Shown here piece after piece: positions 2,098 to 8,878 of a DNA stretch of 64,000 nt. Source of the stretch: Planktothrix serta PCC 8927 (GTDB taxonomy: Bacteria > Cyanobacteriota > Cyanobacteriia > Cyanobacteriales > Microcoleaceae); NCBI RefSeq assembly GCF_900010725.2, contig NZ_LR734832.1:85459-149458 (forward strand), in the 5' to 3' direction. The translations under genes were made by a program, and so were the position numbers. The notes under the pieces were generated by a model, which ran no database searches, was not told the origin of the DNA, and worked only from the letters and a program-made list of their open reading frames with translations. Each line of letters begins with the position of its first letter. The first letter of the stretch is position 1.

Positions 2098-3411
2098 ATG
2101 GTAGGGAAATTGAGAATTCGTGACGATCAGTTAAATAGGATTCAGACATTAATCAATTGCAGGGGTATGATTACGCTGCGATGGGAATTTGCCAAATATC
2201 GGATAGCAAAAGCTTTGGCTTTACGAGCAGGATATATTAAGGACAGAATAGGTCAAGAAGATTTTCAGTATTTACTTGAGAAAAAAATTATTTCTCAAGA
2301 ATCTGTAGAACTGATTATAGAAGAATTTCCTATATTCCAAACGGATCATTTATCTTTAGAAGATATCAGATCATATTATGTAGAAACTAAGCAATATTGT
2401 AATTTACAAGAATTTTTAGATGGTTATTTAACAATAAAATTTAATTCTCGCGGAATTTGGGATAATTTTAGAAACGGAAACGGCATTAGGGAGAGTGCTT
2501 TTAAGTTATTCTGTGAATTTCTGGGTGAAAATTGGCAAGAAATAGGATCAAGGGATCAACTTTTTGAAGATCTTCCTGATTTTGAACAATTAGAAATTGT
2601 ACTTTGTAAATTAGATCATAACTCACAAATTGAATGTTATAAAAACTTTTGTGAATCTCCACTGATCGGTTTTAAAATCCCTAATTTTCAAAGCAAAAAG
2701 TCAAATTATAATTTATATTTATTTTGGTTATTTAAAACATTTTTTAAGTCTATTGACCAACAATGGCAAACAATTCATATTGATTTTGACAATACGCTTG
2801 TTTTTTGCAACCGACAAGAGACAATTAAAAAGTTGATTTATGAGATTGGAATGCCAACAAAAAACCTCAATAAAAAAATAGATAAAGGAAGTATCAAGGC
2901 TCAAGAAATAGCCGAAGAAATTATTGAAGCTTTAAAGAGAGATAAAAGAAATATTATTATTTCTATAAAAACTTCTGACCTGAATCAAGTTAAAGACTTA
3001 GACGAGTTTGTGAGGTATATGGATGAACCACTCATCCAACGGTTAAAAAAATTAGATGGAAAATTATTTAAACCTAAAATAGTCTTTGTTTGGCTTGATT
3101 TGGCTTCTTGTCCTACAAGTTCTAACGTTGAGCTATTTCAAAATGAAATTCCTATTGTGTCGCATTTTTCCAAAACTGATGTCATTAACTGGATCGAGGA
3201 ACAAAACATTATCACTAAAATGTCTAAATGGAGAAAAGAGTTAAATTTCCCTGAAGATCCAGAAAAATTTTTAGAAGAAATTTGGAGGAAATCTGATGTA
3301 ATAATTCCTGATAACTCTGATATGATCAAACCGGAAATGGTTTTAGAAATCTTTTATAAATTTATATTAAATAACTGGGAGAACTACAAACAATCATGGC
3401 TGAAACTTTAG
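2098..3411 (+). CDS. Putative inactive-STAND-like / effector-associated protein
   Basis: 437 residues, soluble, ATG start with no obvious Shine-Dalgarno. The N-terminal ~90 residues are a helical, charged module. The region from about residue 225 has a P-loop-NTPase-like strand pattern (IHIDFDNT, then NIIISIKTSDL, then KIVFVWLDLASCP, then IPIVSHFSKTDVINWIEE) but no Walker A glycine-rich loop. Proteins of this shape directly precede MoxR and vWA genes in ternary conflict systems, where they are described as inactive STAND (iSTAND) modules fused to effector-associated domains. The stop overlaps the MoxR gene start by 16 bases, so translation is coupled. The iSTAND label is inferred from position and strand pattern, not from a diagnostic motif; it could be another degenerate ATPase-like sensor. 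Confidence 0.55.
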   Translation: MVGKLRIRDDQLNRIQTLINCRGMITLRWEFAKYRIAKALALRAGYIKDRIGQEDFQYLLEKKIISQESVELIIEEFPIFQTDHLSLEDIRSYYVETKQYCNLQEFLDGYLTIKFNSRGIWDNFRNGNGIRESAFKLFCEFLGENWQEIGSRDQLFEDLPDFEQLEIVLCKLDHNSQIECYKNFCESPLIGFKIPNFQSKKSNYNLYLFWLFKTFFKSIDQQWQTIHIDFDNTLVFCNRQETIKKLIYEIGMPTKNLNKKIDKGSIKAQEIAEEIIEALKRDKRNIIISIKTSDLNQVKDLDEFVRYMDEPLIQRLKKLDGKLFKPKIVFVWLDLASCPTSSNVELFQNEIPIVSHFSKTDVINWIEEQNIITKMSKWRKELNFPEDPEKFLEEIWRKSDVIIPDNSDMIKPEMVLEIFYKFILNNWENYKQSWLKL

Positions 3412-4433
3412 ATCCAATTAACCCTAAGTTTACCGGAGAACGTGAATTTCAACCTGATCCGGGAGAAAGAGATCCTGAGACTCAAGAACGCCTTTATCCC
3501 TATTTAGCGAAGATCAGTCCGGGGTTAATTGATGCGGTGAATTTAGCGATTAAACTCAAACGTCCGTTATTATTAGAAGGGGAACCCGGATGTGGTAAAA
3601 CTAAATTAGCTAAAGCGATCGCCTATGAATTTAGCAAGCGATCGCAAACAAAATGGCCCTATAAAGCTTGGTATATTAAATCAACGGATCAAGCGAAGAA
3701 TGGTTTATATTGTTATGATGCGGTCAGACGACTTTATGATGCTCAACTCGTAGCTACAGATCCCCAGGAAAAAGATAAGATTAAAGCTAGATTAAACGAT
3801 CCCTCTCATACAGCCTATATCAAATGGGAGGCTATTGGTGAAGCGTTTAAAGCCTCTCAAAATAAGCAACGGATGATTGTTTTAATAGATGAAATTGATA
3901 AGGCGGATACGGATTTTCCCAATGATTTACTATTAGAATTAGAAGAAAAAAAGCTCGTTGTTCGAGAAACTGGGGAAGAAATTTGCGCCAAGGAGGACTA
4001 TGCACCGATTATTTTAATTACCAGTAATGCTCAGAAAAAGTTATCCGATGCTTTTTTGCGTCGATGTTTATATCATTATATTGAATTTCCTAAACGTTCA
4101 GAATTAGAAAAAATTATTATAGCCAGATTTGGTGAAGATTGGTCAGATTCTCTGCTGAATTTGGCATTAAATCGGTTTTTAGCCATTAGAAAGCAGATGA
4201 CAGAGGATAAAGGAGATTTTGGTAAAAAGATTAGTATTAGTGAACTTATAGACTGGATAGCGGCGTTACGTTTTAAGTCAACGCAAGCCAAAATTGAAGA
4301 ACTTTTGAATCAAAGGAAAATTCCTTATGTCAGTTGTTTGTTAAAATCGAAAGAAGATGATCAAAAATATAGCGAAATTGCTCCCGATGATTCCGATGAT
4401 GCAATTGATGAGGATGACGATGATGATGTTTAA
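3396..4433 (+). CDS. MoxR-type AAA+ ATPase of a ternary conflict system
   Basis: 345 residues. Walker A is clear near residue 62 (EGEPGCGKTKLAKA), Walker B near residue 160 (MIVLIDEIDKAD), and sensor-1 (ILITSNAQKKL) and an arginine finger region (DAFLRRCLYHYIEFP) follow in the order expected for MoxR-family AAA+ proteins. The C-terminus is an unusual run of Asp and Glu residues ending in a string of Asp. MoxR ATPases work with vWA proteins as chaperone-like remodelers. The start overlaps the upstream gene by 16 bases. The expected vWA partner is downstream at 4,759, but 325 bases of repetitive DNA separate them. High confidence in family; the conflict role is from context. Confidence 0.9.
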   Translation: MAETLDPINPKFTGEREFQPDPGERDPETQERLYPYLAKISPGLIDAVNLAIKLKRPLLLEGEPGCGKTKLAKAIAYEFSKRSQTKWPYKAWYIKSTDQAKNGLYCYDAVRRLYDAQLVATDPQEKDKIKARLNDPSHTAYIKWEAIGEAFKASQNKQRMIVLIDEIDKADTDFPNDLLLELEEKKLVVRETGEEICAKEDYAPIILITSNAQKKLSDAFLRRCLYHYIEFPKRSELEKIIIARFGEDWSDSLLNLALNRFLAIRKQMTEDKGDFGKKISISELIDWIAALRFKSTQAKIEELLNQRKIPYVSCLLKSKEDDQKYSEIAPDDSDDAIDEDDDDDV

Positions 4434-4758: not shown

Positions 4759-5883
4759 ATGAATACTATCCTTGATTCTTATTATTACTTATTTACTCAA
4801 CTCAGAGATGGCGGGTTTCCTTTGGGAACACAGGATTATTTATTATTCATTGAAGCCATTAAAACAGAAATTTATCCGTTAGAAATCGATAAATTGAAAC
4901 AACTTTGTAGAACCCTTTGGGTAAAATCTCGCAGTCAACACCAACAATTTGAGGCAATTTTTAATCATATAATCCTTCCCCCTATTCCTGAAGAAATAGA
5001 TTCAAATCAACCTATACTGATTAAAAAAGATACTCCTAAATCTATCTCAACTCAAACCATAACCCCAAAAAACAATATTGAAAAACCCCCTAATTTACCC
5101 CCAAAACCTCAAGACAATAACGAATATTTCTTATTTCCCGCTTCCCCCCTCACCGACTCAACTACCCTGGAGGAAGATAGCGAAGTTGTTAAAGCAATGA
5201 AAGTCTCTCCTCAACACAATTGGATGAATTTTAAACCGCCCCAAAACCCCAGAGAATATTTCCCCGTCACCCCCGAACAAATGACCCAAGGATGGTATCA
5301 ATTAAAAACCAGTTTACAAACGGGAACTCGCTTAGAATTCAATATCCAAGCCACAATAGAACAAATCCAACGCCAAGGAAAACCCATTACCCCTGTTTTT
5401 AAACCCTGTCGTCAAAAAAACAGTAATTTAATGTTATTTATCGCCCAACGGGGGTCAATGCAACCCTTTCAAATATTATCACGAAAATTGGTAGAAACCG
5501 CTCAACAAACAGGTTGTTTAGACCCCAACCGATGTTATTATTTCCATCAACATCTCAGCGATAATTTTTTTAGAGATTCTGACTTTGAGGAAGAAATTCC
5601 CCTTGATGCTATCCTAGAATTAACCCAGCCTCAAAAAACCGTGATCTTAATTTTCAGTAATGGAGATGCGGGAGAAAAACGGTATTCTTCCTATCATTTT
5701 AACGCGACTAAAAACGTATTAAATCGACTACAATCTTCTGTAAAAGCGATCGCTTGGTTAAACCCCTTTCCTCAACCCGATTGGCGCTATACAACGGCCG
5801 ATCATATTGCTACACTGAAAACAGTTAAAATGTTTCCGATTGATCGTCAGGGATTCTATAATGCCCTTCAAATATTGCAATGA
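4759..5883 (+). CDS. vWA-like protein with eroded MIDAS, partner of MoxR ATPase
   Basis: 374 residues, soluble. The N-terminal ~75 residues are a helical domain (FTQLRDGGFPLGTQDYLLFIEA), followed by a Pro/Asn-rich linker. The C-terminal ~170 residues have a von Willebrand A fold pattern: LMLFIAQRGSMQPF at about residue 224 where the MIDAS DxSxS should be, then YYFHQHLSD, VILIFSNGDAG and IAWLNPFP. The first MIDAS Asp is replaced (AQRGSM), so metal binding is probably lost; this erosion is common in vWA proteins of MoxR-linked ternary systems. The stop overlaps the next gene by four bases (ATGA), so the FGE-domain protein is translationally coupled. Confidence 0.75.
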   Translation: MNTILDSYYYLFTQLRDGGFPLGTQDYLLFIEAIKTEIYPLEIDKLKQLCRTLWVKSRSQHQQFEAIFNHIILPPIPEEIDSNQPILIKKDTPKSISTQTITPKNNIEKPPNLPPKPQDNNEYFLFPASPLTDSTTLEEDSEVVKAMKVSPQHNWMNFKPPQNPREYFPVTPEQMTQGWYQLKTSLQTGTRLEFNIQATIEQIQRQGKPITPVFKPCRQKNSNLMLFIAQRGSMQPFQILSRKLVETAQQTGCLDPNRCYYFHQHLSDNFFRDSDFEEEIPLDAILELTQPQKTVILIFSNGDAGEKRYSSYHFNATKNVLNRLQSSVKAIAWLNPFPQPDWRYTTADHIATLKTVKMFPIDRQGFYNALQILQ

Positions 5884-7589
5884 CGAACCCTTCTCTCCTC
5901 AATTCTAACCCCCAAACCGAAGCGGCAAGAGAAACCATTGACCGCTTTCGTCAGCAATATGGAGAAATTTATTATCAATTTGCCTGTTATGCCGCCTTTC
6001 CCTTAGCATTAACTCCCGATTTTCTCTATCGTTTACGCGATAAATTCTATTCAAAATTACCTGTTCCTTGGCTGGCTGTTGCCCATTTATTGTTATCGGA
6101 TTTATGTCAGAATATTGGAGCAGAACTCTATGAAATGGATCGAACGGTTCGCGGTTTATTACTGCATCAATTAACCCCTGGTGAATTATCCCACCTTTCC
6201 CAATTTTCTCTCCACTACATCGAACATCATTTTCAAACGGATATTCAGGGACTTGAGAAAGCGCAACATTGGACAGCTTTAGCCTATGTTAACCCCGAAC
6301 CTGCGGCTCAAGAAATTGCCCGAGAACTGCGTAAATTATTGCAAAAACCCATTTCTAGGGACTGGTTGAGAATATCTTCTCTGGTGGAAACCCTAGCCGA
6401 ACCTCTGCAACAAGCTAATTTTCAACCCCTATTAACTTTAGCTGAAGCGATGGGAAAAGCCGCCAGGGGAAACTATACCGAAGCCGAACAACAATTTGCT
6501 AAACTTCGACAAAATAATAGTGTTAATATTGCGGGGGTTTCTGTCCCTTTACCTCCCCCTCCTATTCCAGCAAAAACCTTTGGTTTTGAAACCGTTACTG
6601 TTAATAAAAAGGGTAAAATTATCAAACGGGAAACCAAACAAGCCCGATATTTCACCGAAGACCTGGGGGATGGAGTCACGTTAGAGATGGTTTATATTCC
6701 TGGGGGGACATTCCTCATGGGTTCACCGAAGGGGGAAGGACACAAAAGGGAACGCCCCCAACATCAAGTTACAGTTCCTCCTTTTTTCATGGCCAAATAT
6801 CCCATCACCCAAGCTCAATGGCAAGCCGTGGCTAACTGGCCTAAAATTCAACGGGATCTCGACCCTGACTGTTCTCATTTTAAAGGAGATCCCCCCCAAC
6901 CCCCCTTAGAAAGGGGGGCTTCAGGAGTTTCCCCCCAAACCCCTTTAACAAGCGAGGCTTCAGAAAATTCCAGTTCCCCCCCTTACCAAGGGGGGGCTAG
7001 GGGGGGATCTAACCGACCCGTAGAAAAGGTTAAATGGTACGATGCCGTCGAATTTTGTGCCCGAATGTTCCAACGCACCGGACGCCCCTATCATTTACCC
7101 TCAGAAGCCCAATGGGAATATGCTTGTCGTGCTGGAACTCAAACCCCATTTTACTTTGGGGAAACCCTAACCAGTGATTTAGCGAATTATCGGGGAACTG
7201 AAACCTACGCAAACGAACCCGAAGGAATATATCGAGAGGAAACCACCCCCGTTGGTCAATTCCCTCCTAATGCCTTTGGGTTGTATGATCTCTATGGCAA
7301 TGTCTGGGAATGGTGCGCCGACCCTTGGCATGAAAACTATGAAGATGCACCAACACAAGGGGAAGTTTGGGATGAGCAGAATAAGAATGATAATCGTTAT
7401 AAGATATATAGTATTGAAAATTTAGTCAATTTATTAAGCAGCAATGAAAACCGGGTGATGCGCGGAGGTTCGTGGCTCTACTATCCCAGGTATTGTCGCG
7501 GTGCCTATCGTAACTGGGACGTGCCGGGCAGTCGGGTCAGGGGCTGCGGATTTCGTGTTGCTTCCTCCCCGCCTGCGTGGACTCTTTAG
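5880..7589 (+). CDS. FGE-sulfatase (C-type-lectin fold) protein with DGR-like variable C-terminus
   Basis: 569 residues. Residues 1-250 are a helical domain often seen in MoxR/vWA-linked proteins (QFACYAAFPLALTPDFLYRLR, then LLLSDLCQNIGAELYEMD). From residue ~266 there is an FGE-sulfatase/SUMF1 domain: EMVYIPGGTFLMGSP, PITQAQWQAV, WYDAVEFC, YHLPSEAQWEYACRAG, GLYDLYGNVWEWC, RVMRGGSW. The first of the two active-site Cys of true formylglycine-generating enzymes is Tyr here, so a binding role is more likely than oxidation. The final ~35 residues match the layout of DGR variable regions in this fold. A 40-codon in-frame repeat insertion (6,891-7,010) interrupts the domain between FKGD and NRPVEKVKW. 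It overlaps the vWA gene by four bases. Confidence 0.85.
   Translation: MTNPSLLNSNPQTEAARETIDRFRQQYGEIYYQFACYAAFPLALTPDFLYRLRDKFYSKLPVPWLAVAHLLLSDLCQNIGAELYEMDRTVRGLLLHQLTPGELSHLSQFSLHYIEHHFQTDIQGLEKAQHWTALAYVNPEPAAQEIARELRKLLQKPISRDWLRISSLVETLAEPLQQANFQPLLTLAEAMGKAARGNYTEAEQQFAKLRQNNSVNIAGVSVPLPPPPIPAKTFGFETVTVNKKGKIIKRETKQARYFTEDLGDGVTLEMVYIPGGTFLMGSPKGEGHKRERPQHQVTVPPFFMAKYPITQAQWQAVANWPKIQRDLDPDCSHFKGDPPQPPLERGASGVSPQTPLTSEASENSSSPPYQGGARGGSNRPVEKVKWYDAVEFCARMFQRTGRPYHLPSEAQWEYACRAGTQTPFYFGETLTSDLANYRGTETYANEPEGIYREETTPVGQFPPNAFGLYDLYGNVWEWCADPWHENYEDAPTQGEVWDEQNKNDNRYKIYSIENLVNLLSSNENRVMRGGSWLYYPRYCRGAYRNWDVPGSRVRGCGFRVASSPPAWTL
6891..7010. repeat. 120-bp in-frame palindromic repeat insertion within the FGE gene
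   Basis: C-rich and G-rich arms (CCCCCCCAACCCCCCTTAG with GGGGGG, and CCCCCCTTACCAAGGGGGGG) form two hairpins and encode a low-complexity stretch with PPQPPLERG and PPYQGGARGG. A GATC tetramer sits at each edge (6,888 and 7,006). Exactly 40 codons are added without a frame change, between two conserved FGE motifs. A related arrangement (TTAAGGGGGATTTAGGGGGA) occurs at 44,466-44,485. Peptides of this type recur in many cyanobacterial proteins. Confidence 0.8.
7455..7589 (+). other. Putative DGR variable region (VR) of the FGE protein
   Basis: The C-terminus runs RVMRGGSW-LYY-PR-Y-CRGAYR-NWDV-PGSR-VRG-CGFRV. The invariant frame (RGGSW, PR, CR, AYR, R, GFRV) is what is typical for lectin-fold DGR targets. 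The positions in between are those normally encoded by AAC/AAT in templates. The observed codons there are CTC, TAC, TAT, TAT, AAC, GAC, GGC, AGT, GTC, GGC and TGC, which is consistent with substitutions at A sites while the final C or T is kept. TGG, GTG and AGG do not fit this simple model without a differing template base. No template repeat or reverse transcriptase is in the window. Confidence 0.6.
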
Positions 7590-7938
7590 CCCTTTTAAAC
7601 CGTTTGCCCAAGGATCACAAATTCATGTTAGGCGATCGCATTATATCAGAAACCGGGTTTTTCAGTTAACTTAATACTAACAATCAAAATCTTTGTTAAA
7701 AACCCGGTTTCTTGACTTCACATTTGTTTTGCTAGGTTCTACCTAGCAATGCTGTCTTGCAGGCTCCGCCTGCTATGGTCAGAGGCAGAGCCTCACCTTG
7801 AAATTCCCTGGTAGAACCAGGGAACTAGGGATTACAATCTTTGTTAAAAACTCTGACAATAAGGGATGGATATCGTCAAGAAATGTTATTTTTTACTACA
7901 ACTAGAAAAGTATAATTGTACTGAGAGATATTAAAATA
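7590..7938. repeat. Intergenic repeats: AAACCGGGTT palindrome and loop-rich repeat
   Basis: There is no gene here. At 7,648-7,711 AGAAACCGGGTTTTT and AAAAACCCGGTTTCT face each other across about 35 bases; this is one of five copies in the window. At 7,731-7,830 four small palindromes follow in a row (TAGGTTCTACCTA, GCAGGCTCCGCCTGC, GAGGCAGAGCCTC, TTCCCTGGTAGAACCAGGGA), a composite repeat typical of filamentous cyanobacteria. The last ~100 bases before xisH are AT-rich and could hold its promoter. Confidence 0.7.
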
Positions 7939-8355
7939 ATGCCTGCCAAAGATATCTATCATGATGATGTTAAAATAGCCTTAGAAAAGGATGGCTGGAC
8001 AATTACCAAAGATCCCTTAGTCCTGCAATGGGGATCAAAAGATTTGTTTGTGGACTTAGGAGCAGAAAAATTACTAGCCGCCCAAAGACAGAATGAAAAA
8101 ATTGCGGTTGAGATTAAAAGTTTTGCGGGGAGTTCCCAAGTTAACGATTTAGAAAAAGCTGTAGGACAGTATATTGTTTATCGAAATATTTTAGAAGAAA
8201 TCGAAACCGATAGGATTTTATATTTGGCAATTCCTAAAAAAGCATTCCAAGATATTTTTTCTGAACCCCTTGGGCGTTTAGTCGTCAGAAAAAATCAACT
8301 CAATTTACTGGTTTTTCATCCTCAAACTCAGGAGGTCATGCAATGGATACCTTAA
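7939..8355 (+). CDS. xisH: XisH family protein (nuclease-fold, fdxN-element excision factor homologue)
   Basis: 138 residues starting MPAKDIYHDDVKIALEKDGWTIT, matching the XisH family by pattern: a conserved start, DLGAEKLLAAQR and VEIKSFAGSSQVNDLEKAVGQY. The Asp/Glu-x-Lys arrangement (VDLGAE and VEIKSF) is that of a restriction-endonuclease-like core. In heterocystous Anabaena, XisH and XisI are needed with XisF for fdxN element excision. Here no recombinase or fdxN element is nearby, and xisHI pairs are widespread in cyanobacteria without such elements, so a different (possibly defence or toxin-like) role is likely. It overlaps xisI by 13 bases. Confidence 0.92.
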   Translation: MPAKDIYHDDVKIALEKDGWTITKDPLVLQWGSKDLFVDLGAEKLLAAQRQNEKIAVEIKSFAGSSQVNDLEKAVGQYIVYRNILEEIETDRILYLAIPKKAFQDIFSEPLGRLVVRKNQLNLLVFHPQTQEVMQWIP

Positions 8356-8678
8356 CCCAATACCAAACCATTATTTATAAAATTTTAAGCGAATATGCTC
8401 AAATTCCCTATTTCTATGGAGAGTTAGAAAGGAGATTTATTATTAGTGAAGATAAAAATAGTTATTTATTAATGACGTTAGGATGGCAAGGAGATCAACG
8501 AGTACATGGCTGTTTAGTTCATGTAGAGATAAAAAATGATAAAGTTTGGATTCAACGGGATGGAACAGAAGACGGTATTGCTGAAGAATTAGTTAGGGCT
8601 GGAATTCCTAAACAAGATATTGTTTTAGGCTTTCACCCCCTAGAAATTCGTCCCTATACTGAATATGCAGTTAACTAA
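8343..8678 (+). CDS. xisI: XisI family protein
   Basis: 111 residues with the XisI family pattern: LTQYQTIIYKILSEYAQIPY, DRRxxY-like region (EDKNSYLLMTLGWQGDQRVHGCLVHVEIKNDKVWIQRDGTEDGIAEELVRAGIPKQDIVLGFH) and a closing RPYTEYAVN. XisI is the obligate partner of XisH. The 13-base overlap with xisH points to coupled translation. Two copies of the AAACCGGGTT palindrome follow directly after the stop. The molecular function of XisI is not established. Confidence 0.92.
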   Translation: MDTLTQYQTIIYKILSEYAQIPYFYGELERRFIISEDKNSYLLMTLGWQGDQRVHGCLVHVEIKNDKVWIQRDGTEDGIAEELVRAGIPKQDIVLGFHPLEIRPYTEYAVN

Positions 8679-8878
8679 TCCAGAAACCCGGTTTTTGAGT
8701 TAACTTAATACTCAGCATCAAAATCTGGATTAAAAACCCGGTTTCTCAACTTCGCAGTCAACTCTCAGAAACCGGGTTTTTGAGTTAACTGAATACTAAC
8801 AATCAAAATTTGGATTAAAAACCCGGTTTCTTGATTACTCTATATTAAGAACTGTTAAGCAATTGAGGATCAGCACGG
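8679..8878. repeat. Two tandem copies of the AAACCGGGTT palindrome family
   Basis: Copies at 8,681-8,747 and 8,766-8,832 each contain an AGAAACC(C)GGGTTTTT-type left arm, a middle with GAGTTAACTxAATACT, and a right arm TTAAAAACCCGGTTTCT. The right arm is nearly the complement of the left. The two copies share about the same middle sequence, so this is a local duplication of the dispersed repeat also found at 7,648. Confidence 0.75.

Follow-up and report, generated by a model that had tools for sequence, protein, structure and literature searches.

A variable region of the DGR type in a MoxR/vWA operon of Planktothrix serta PCC 8927, probably frozen after deletion of the reverse transcriptase and template

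The type of system considered here, in which FGE proteins of VMAP or MoxR-vWA ternary conflict operons are diversified by a DGR, has already been published, according to an excerpt of PMC7159879, and degenerate DGR loci are likewise known from Thiohalocapsa PB-PSB1, as described in an excerpt of PMC10907252. The same paper proposed a role for the DGR target in detecting an invader and in signalling via MoxR, which by its own account was still to be tested. For cyanobacteria, a passage of PMC7517822 describes C-type-lectin variable regions (VRs) that are scattered over the genome at a distance from a reverse transcriptase (RT); it also reports a VR remnant without a nearby RT in Nostoc PCC 7120 and suggests that the machinery was removed. 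A description of DGR loss in Planktothrix was not found in the open-licence literature.

We analysed a window of 64,000 nucleotides from the P. serta PCC 8927 assembly (G000:C13:85459–149458, where G000 denotes this assembly and other G numbers denote genomes of relatives). Measured against the DGR-associated VMAP and MoxR-vWA systems, as presented in the excerpts of PMC7159879 and PMC10907252, the window locus shares a MoxR-like ATPase, a vWA-like protein, an FGE/C-type-lectin protein with a C-terminal VR, and its occurrence in a genus of filamentous cyanobacteria. Unlike in those excerpts, the vWA and FGE parts of G000 are encoded by separate genes, no VMAP domain is recognisable, and the RT and the template repeat (TR) were not found in the genome. 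C-type-lectin VRs far from the RT are also a feature of the cyanobacterial remote variable proteins; however, the genome in the PMC7517822 passage still has DGRs, whereas the G000 assembly lacks the RT and TR and carries a visible deletion scar. With Thiohalocapsa PB-PSB1, as far as the PMC10907252 excerpt goes, G000 has in common loci with missing machinery near MITE-like repeats, but one complete locus per class was kept there and none was found in G000.

The target gene (5880–7589, + strand) is a single intact open reading frame of 569 amino acids and the last in a run of four genes on the + strand. Its N-terminal part had no Pfam match; residues 269–561 matched Pfam FGE-sulfatase (E 4.9e-58), and sequence relatives of this domain include T. 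denticola variable protein 1 (E 3e-14). When the target was aligned to solved FGE, Tyr was found at the position of the first active-site Cys, while the second Cys was kept; two solved FGE chains in the alignment have Ser at the first position, where the native residue is presumably Cys. The target does not contain both active-site cysteines of a catalytic formylglycine-generating enzyme, in agreement with the loss of the first one noted in the first-pass annotation. Judging by its sequence, the FGE domain is most likely a ligand-binding lectin fold. At about 6890–7010 of the window, a proline/glycine-rich, repeat-like in-frame insertion (PPQPPLERGAS ... PPYQGGARGG) was seen by eye within the domain.

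Upstream of the target lie genes for a vWA-like protein of 374 aa (4759–5883, +; weak matches to VWA_CoxE and the SAV_2336 N-terminal family, both below the cut-off), a MoxR-like AAA ATPase of 345 aa (3396–4433, +; AAA_5 with E 1.3e-10, MadB_ATPase below the cut-off), and a 437-aa protein (2098–3411, +). The last occupies the place expected for VMAP and has a counterpart in G006 C43 (42% at the amino acid level), and no family match to it was found in Pfam, NCBIfam or PADLOC. The MoxR-like ATPase and the vWA-like protein adjoin the target gene as in MoxR-vWA-VMAP ternary conflict systems, and the operon is most likely of the MoxR/vWA sensor-effector type, in which the target would bind a ligand and the operon would signal and act in defence. 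An XisH/XisI gene pair is located directly downstream (7939–8678).

The first-pass annotation had proposed a DGR-type VR at 7455–7589, at the end of an FGE/C-type-lectin protein of a conflict-type operon. VR-type homology spans 7447–7595 in the window, in good agreement with those limits, and both the RGGSW..PR.C...R..GFRV frame and the codons ending in C or T that it had listed are present in the target. The VR thus stands at the 3' end of a C-type-lectin-fold gene, whose FGE-sulfatase domain runs to residue 561 of 569. For comparison with templates, a core was chosen from CGGAGG to just before CGTGTT (7463–7553, +). Two template classes were distinguished, class I from the TR of G001 and class II from the TRs of G006 and G007. 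Against the G007 TR, which is the template of a sister genome and not of G000 itself, the core differed at 16 of 28 template adenines and at 2 of 63 other positions (one-sided Fisher 1.3e-8); over a longer alignment, the values were 17/30 and 7/100. A VR-shaped pattern, derived from the VRs themselves, had a single match in the window, and 100 shuffles gave none.

Comparison of the class I template with the class II template revealed no bias toward adenines (9/30 A, 38/100 non-A). VRs set against the wrong class showed some bias (22/30 A and 45/106 non-A, p 0.004, for the window against the G001 TR; 23/30 and 31/100 for the G006 C43 VR against the G007 TR), which is due to the abundance of AAC in both templates. 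Therefore, it is the low number of non-A differences, and not the A count alone, that ties the window to the class II template. Two further VR copies were detected in G000, both at the 3' termini of FGE genes: C57:237449 (84% nucleotide identity) and C58:97051 (79%). The core of the former differed from the G007 TR at 16/28 A and 2/63 non-A positions, whereas the fit of the latter was poor (9/28 and 7/63; p 0.019, weak), which points to either a different template or drift. Pooled over 20 VR rows, with the row of the G006 template left out, 274 of 558 A cells and 71 of 1258 non-A cells differed; as the rows are related, this figure is only descriptive. The A-specific differences from the templates of sister genomes strongly support the first-pass assignment, and window positions 7463–7553 are a genuine DGR variable region.

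Directly behind the stop codon of the VR, a remnant of an avd gene, overlooked in the first-pass annotation, was identified by nucleotide and protein matches (7590–7644, +). Over 55 nt, it shares 94.5% identity with an internal part of the G001 avd (92.7% for G003 C137 and 90.9% for G002), and its translation matches Avd at 15 of 19 residues (E 1e-7). The avd gene that G000 itself carries on C57 gave no nucleotide match to 7590–7644. This mismatch, which had not been predicted beforehand, fits a remnant of a separate cassette. A dispersed repeat adjoins the remnant (7644–7700, no strand assigned; matches of 89.5% and 87.3%), and copies of it abut or lie near avd fragments in G003 C137 and G006 C43. 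The repeat is palindrome-like (aaccgggttttt ... aaaaacccggttt), and a similar sequence was noticed by eye near 8680–8830 of the window.

The related operon in G001 has avd, RT and a class I TR, and the operons in G002, G003 C137 and G006 C43 are followed by avd fragments. The VRs of all four loci belong to class I and are A-biased against the G001 template, with differences at 16/31, 18/31, 15/31 and 20/30 A positions and at 4/120, 11/120, 12/120 and 12/118 non-A positions, respectively. In the G001 cassette (L117), where avd, RT and TR are present, the match to the FGE part of the target is split into two overlapping segments, and upstream of the VR only 178 codons stay open in its frame; this target therefore looks frame-broken.

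The class II VR on a body of the class I type indicates that the VR in the window changed its class, by homing or by recombination. Recombination would mean that a class II VR end was grafted onto a class I gene and that its diversity was made elsewhere and not by homing at this locus, a possibility that we consider less likely. It would agree with the nearest orthologue, G006 C43 (83% at the amino acid level in the N-terminal part), having a class I VR, with the stop codon of the class II VR being joined to the middle of avd, and with the FGE body matching that of G001, a class I target, at 84.9% over 901 aligned positions. However, similar FGE bodies are combined with class II VRs in G006 C11 (82.7%), G009 C47 (86.0%) and G004 C119 (80.4%), which suggests that such a graft may be old and that homing may have followed it. 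A graft concerns the origin of the VR at this locus and is compatible with a later loss of the RT.

The first-pass annotation had reported no RT in the window, and tblastn with a sister DGR RT indeed gave no match there; it had concluded that a remote DGR would be needed for this VR. In the G000 draft genome (6,270,183 bases, 155 contigs, completeness 99.91%), no DGR RT and no template could be found for that role. The RVT_1 profile search detected five RTs, none of them DGR-like. Four have open frames of 542–605 aa and were read as group II intron type from their length and sequence. The fifth (L008; G000:C56:12755–13222), the sole G000 RT unlike those of group II introns, was rejected as a DGR RT: a 156-aa piece of it is AbiP2-like (E 1.6e-81), as in defence reverse transcriptases. 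A DGR RT query matched the same five places, at best with E 7.5e-12 and 32% identity, and none at E ≤ 1e-30. Searches with VR, inferred-template and TR queries did not reveal a template repeat of either class in the draft. A match on C65 to the VR query (17 bases, E 5.2) and 16 weak matches to the inferred-template query (14–32 bases, E 0.36 or higher) were rejected as templates.

Of the RT, template and Avd that make up the machinery of a complete DGR, only Avd was found in the G000 draft. The Avd of C57 is encoded by an intact ORF and scored 141 bits against a cut-off of 80 for NF033474 and 70.6 against 40 for bAvd. In a survey of 61 genomes of the family, G000 was the only one of 12 genomes with Avd above the cut-off to have no RT match at the threshold of E ≤ 1e-30; RT without above-cut-off Avd was observed in three (G020, G055 and G056). 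The absence of RT and TR throughout the genome had been named by the first-pass annotation as grounds for giving up the VR. While both are indeed missing from the draft, the VR itself stands, since its template class survives in sister genomes.

The site at which the machinery was lost was recognised on C57. In G006 and G007, the cassettes have the order VR gene, avd, RT and TR. The best match of the G006 RT among solved structures was 8ub7 (E 1.3e-49), which we take to be the DGR RT of a Bordetella phage; in NCBIfam the G006 RT had no DGR RT match, the best being a group II intron RT below the cut-off. The G006 cassette has its G000 orthologue on C57, with 92% nucleotide identity over a stretch comprising most of the VR gene and 90% in the downstream flank. 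The match runs through L055:6498 of the G006 cassette and then jumps to L055:7830–7863, with 12 nt of C57 shared by the two matches. The missing sequence of about 1.34 kb wholly contains the RT (L055:6502–7557) and the TR (L055:7579–7697), while the VR gene and avd are still present on C57. At the join, 34 bp of sequence from beyond the TR are preserved (91% to G006 and 94% to G007), which makes a loss in G000 likelier than a gain in G006 and G007. In both intact class II cassettes, the beginning of avd recurs as a partial second copy downstream of RT-TR (L055:8683–8736 in G006, and L054:6025–6114). The scar could be a misassembly, and the TR, as a repeat, could have been collapsed in a draft of 155 contigs, but no collapse is expected for an RT gene, which is unique and 1 kb long.

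The distribution of VRs was compared among 10 genomes of the genus, one per species, using a VR query inferred from the three G000 copies. It gave 22 matches at E ≤ 0.001 in eight genomes; two of them, in G006 and G007, lie just behind the RT gene and are the real class II templates. VRs of either class were present in nine of the ten genomes, the exception being G005, which is 73% complete, and a DGR RT was found in three (G001, G006 and G007). Thus, six of the nine VR-bearing genomes had no detectable DGR RT (G000, G002, G003, G004, G008 and G009), five of them being drafts. In the near-closed G002 (five contigs), no DGR RT was found and three coding class I VRs were detected (C1:1165064, 3367598 and 4026068), with differences at 14/28, 13/26 and 15/28 A positions and 2/111, 3/111 and 6/109 non-A positions. 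G001 combines a class I template with a class II VR, and G006 a class II template with a class I VR; genomes therefore keep VRs of template classes that are not found in them. In G003, which is without a detectable DGR RT, two class II VRs are situated about 0.9 kb apart on C160 (L068:7195–8214).

VRs on contigs other than the RT contig were observed in both G006 and G007. The G006 TR lacks 4 nt present in the G007 TR, and the G006 C11 VR (L056:8330–8448) lacks the same 4 nt, with a shifted reading frame. Seven substitutions separate this VR from the G006 TR over the core, each a template A replaced by G, and this pattern is direct evidence of copying from a template to a remote VR. The repeated deletion also demonstrates that a damaged template can shift the frame of its target.

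Such cassettes acting in trans, the G006 C11 copy and the 155 contigs of the draft would all be consistent with a DGR that is still active in G000, its RT and TR residing in the unassembled part or on a missed plasmid and rewriting the three VRs from there. We nevertheless consider this improbable, given the high completeness of the genome, the negative outcome of HMM, protein and DNA searches for a DGR RT and a TR, and the orthologous cassette site, which was assembled within a contig of 641,688 bases and lacks both. A GTDB contig scan yielded 246 confirmed relatives of the target protein; among the 80 loci kept, a DGR RT was within the fetched stretch in three and avd in four, values that say little on loss rates because many of these loci lie on short contigs. 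Although FGE genes are so numerous, ordinary divergence of FGE paralogues without a DGR is rejected with near certainty by the concentration of differences at template adenines, with 2/63 elsewhere and no such bias between the templates themselves, and by the real templates, RT and Avd of sister genomes.

The explanation that we consider highly probable is that the window contains a genuine VR within a MoxR/vWA operon, written from a class II template, with the RT and template since deleted at C57. An avd-RT-TR cassette of a different template class would once have belonged to the locus from which the window operon derives. The VR of the window would last have been written by a class II template of the kind still present in G006 and G007, and the writer was most likely the cassette deleted at C57. 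The RT and the class II template would have been removed together from that cassette, with its VR gene and Avd retained. After this loss, the window VR is most likely frozen, and it would represent an inherited variant of a ligand-binding sensor whose rewriting has ended and whose specificity is fixed. The present inactivity of the DGR and this order of events are suggested by the genome comparisons.

It is conceivable, although on balance we doubt it, that mutator loss is a recurrent and selected step, in which sensors are diversified, RT and template are then deleted together, and the winning variants, here together with Avd, are kept. Template damage such as the 4-nt deletion in G006 may be one trigger of that loss.

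In conclusion, P. serta PCC 8927 provides a new and clear case of an assembly without RT and template that has three VRs and Avd, and the deletion scar on C57 and the fossil avd sequence behind the window VR are likewise new. Related genomes contain present, damaged and lost DGRs at homologous loci. This set of genomes makes it testable whether diversified sensors are useful, and under selection, after the loss of the mutator, and whether the freezing of a repertoire is drift or a strategy.
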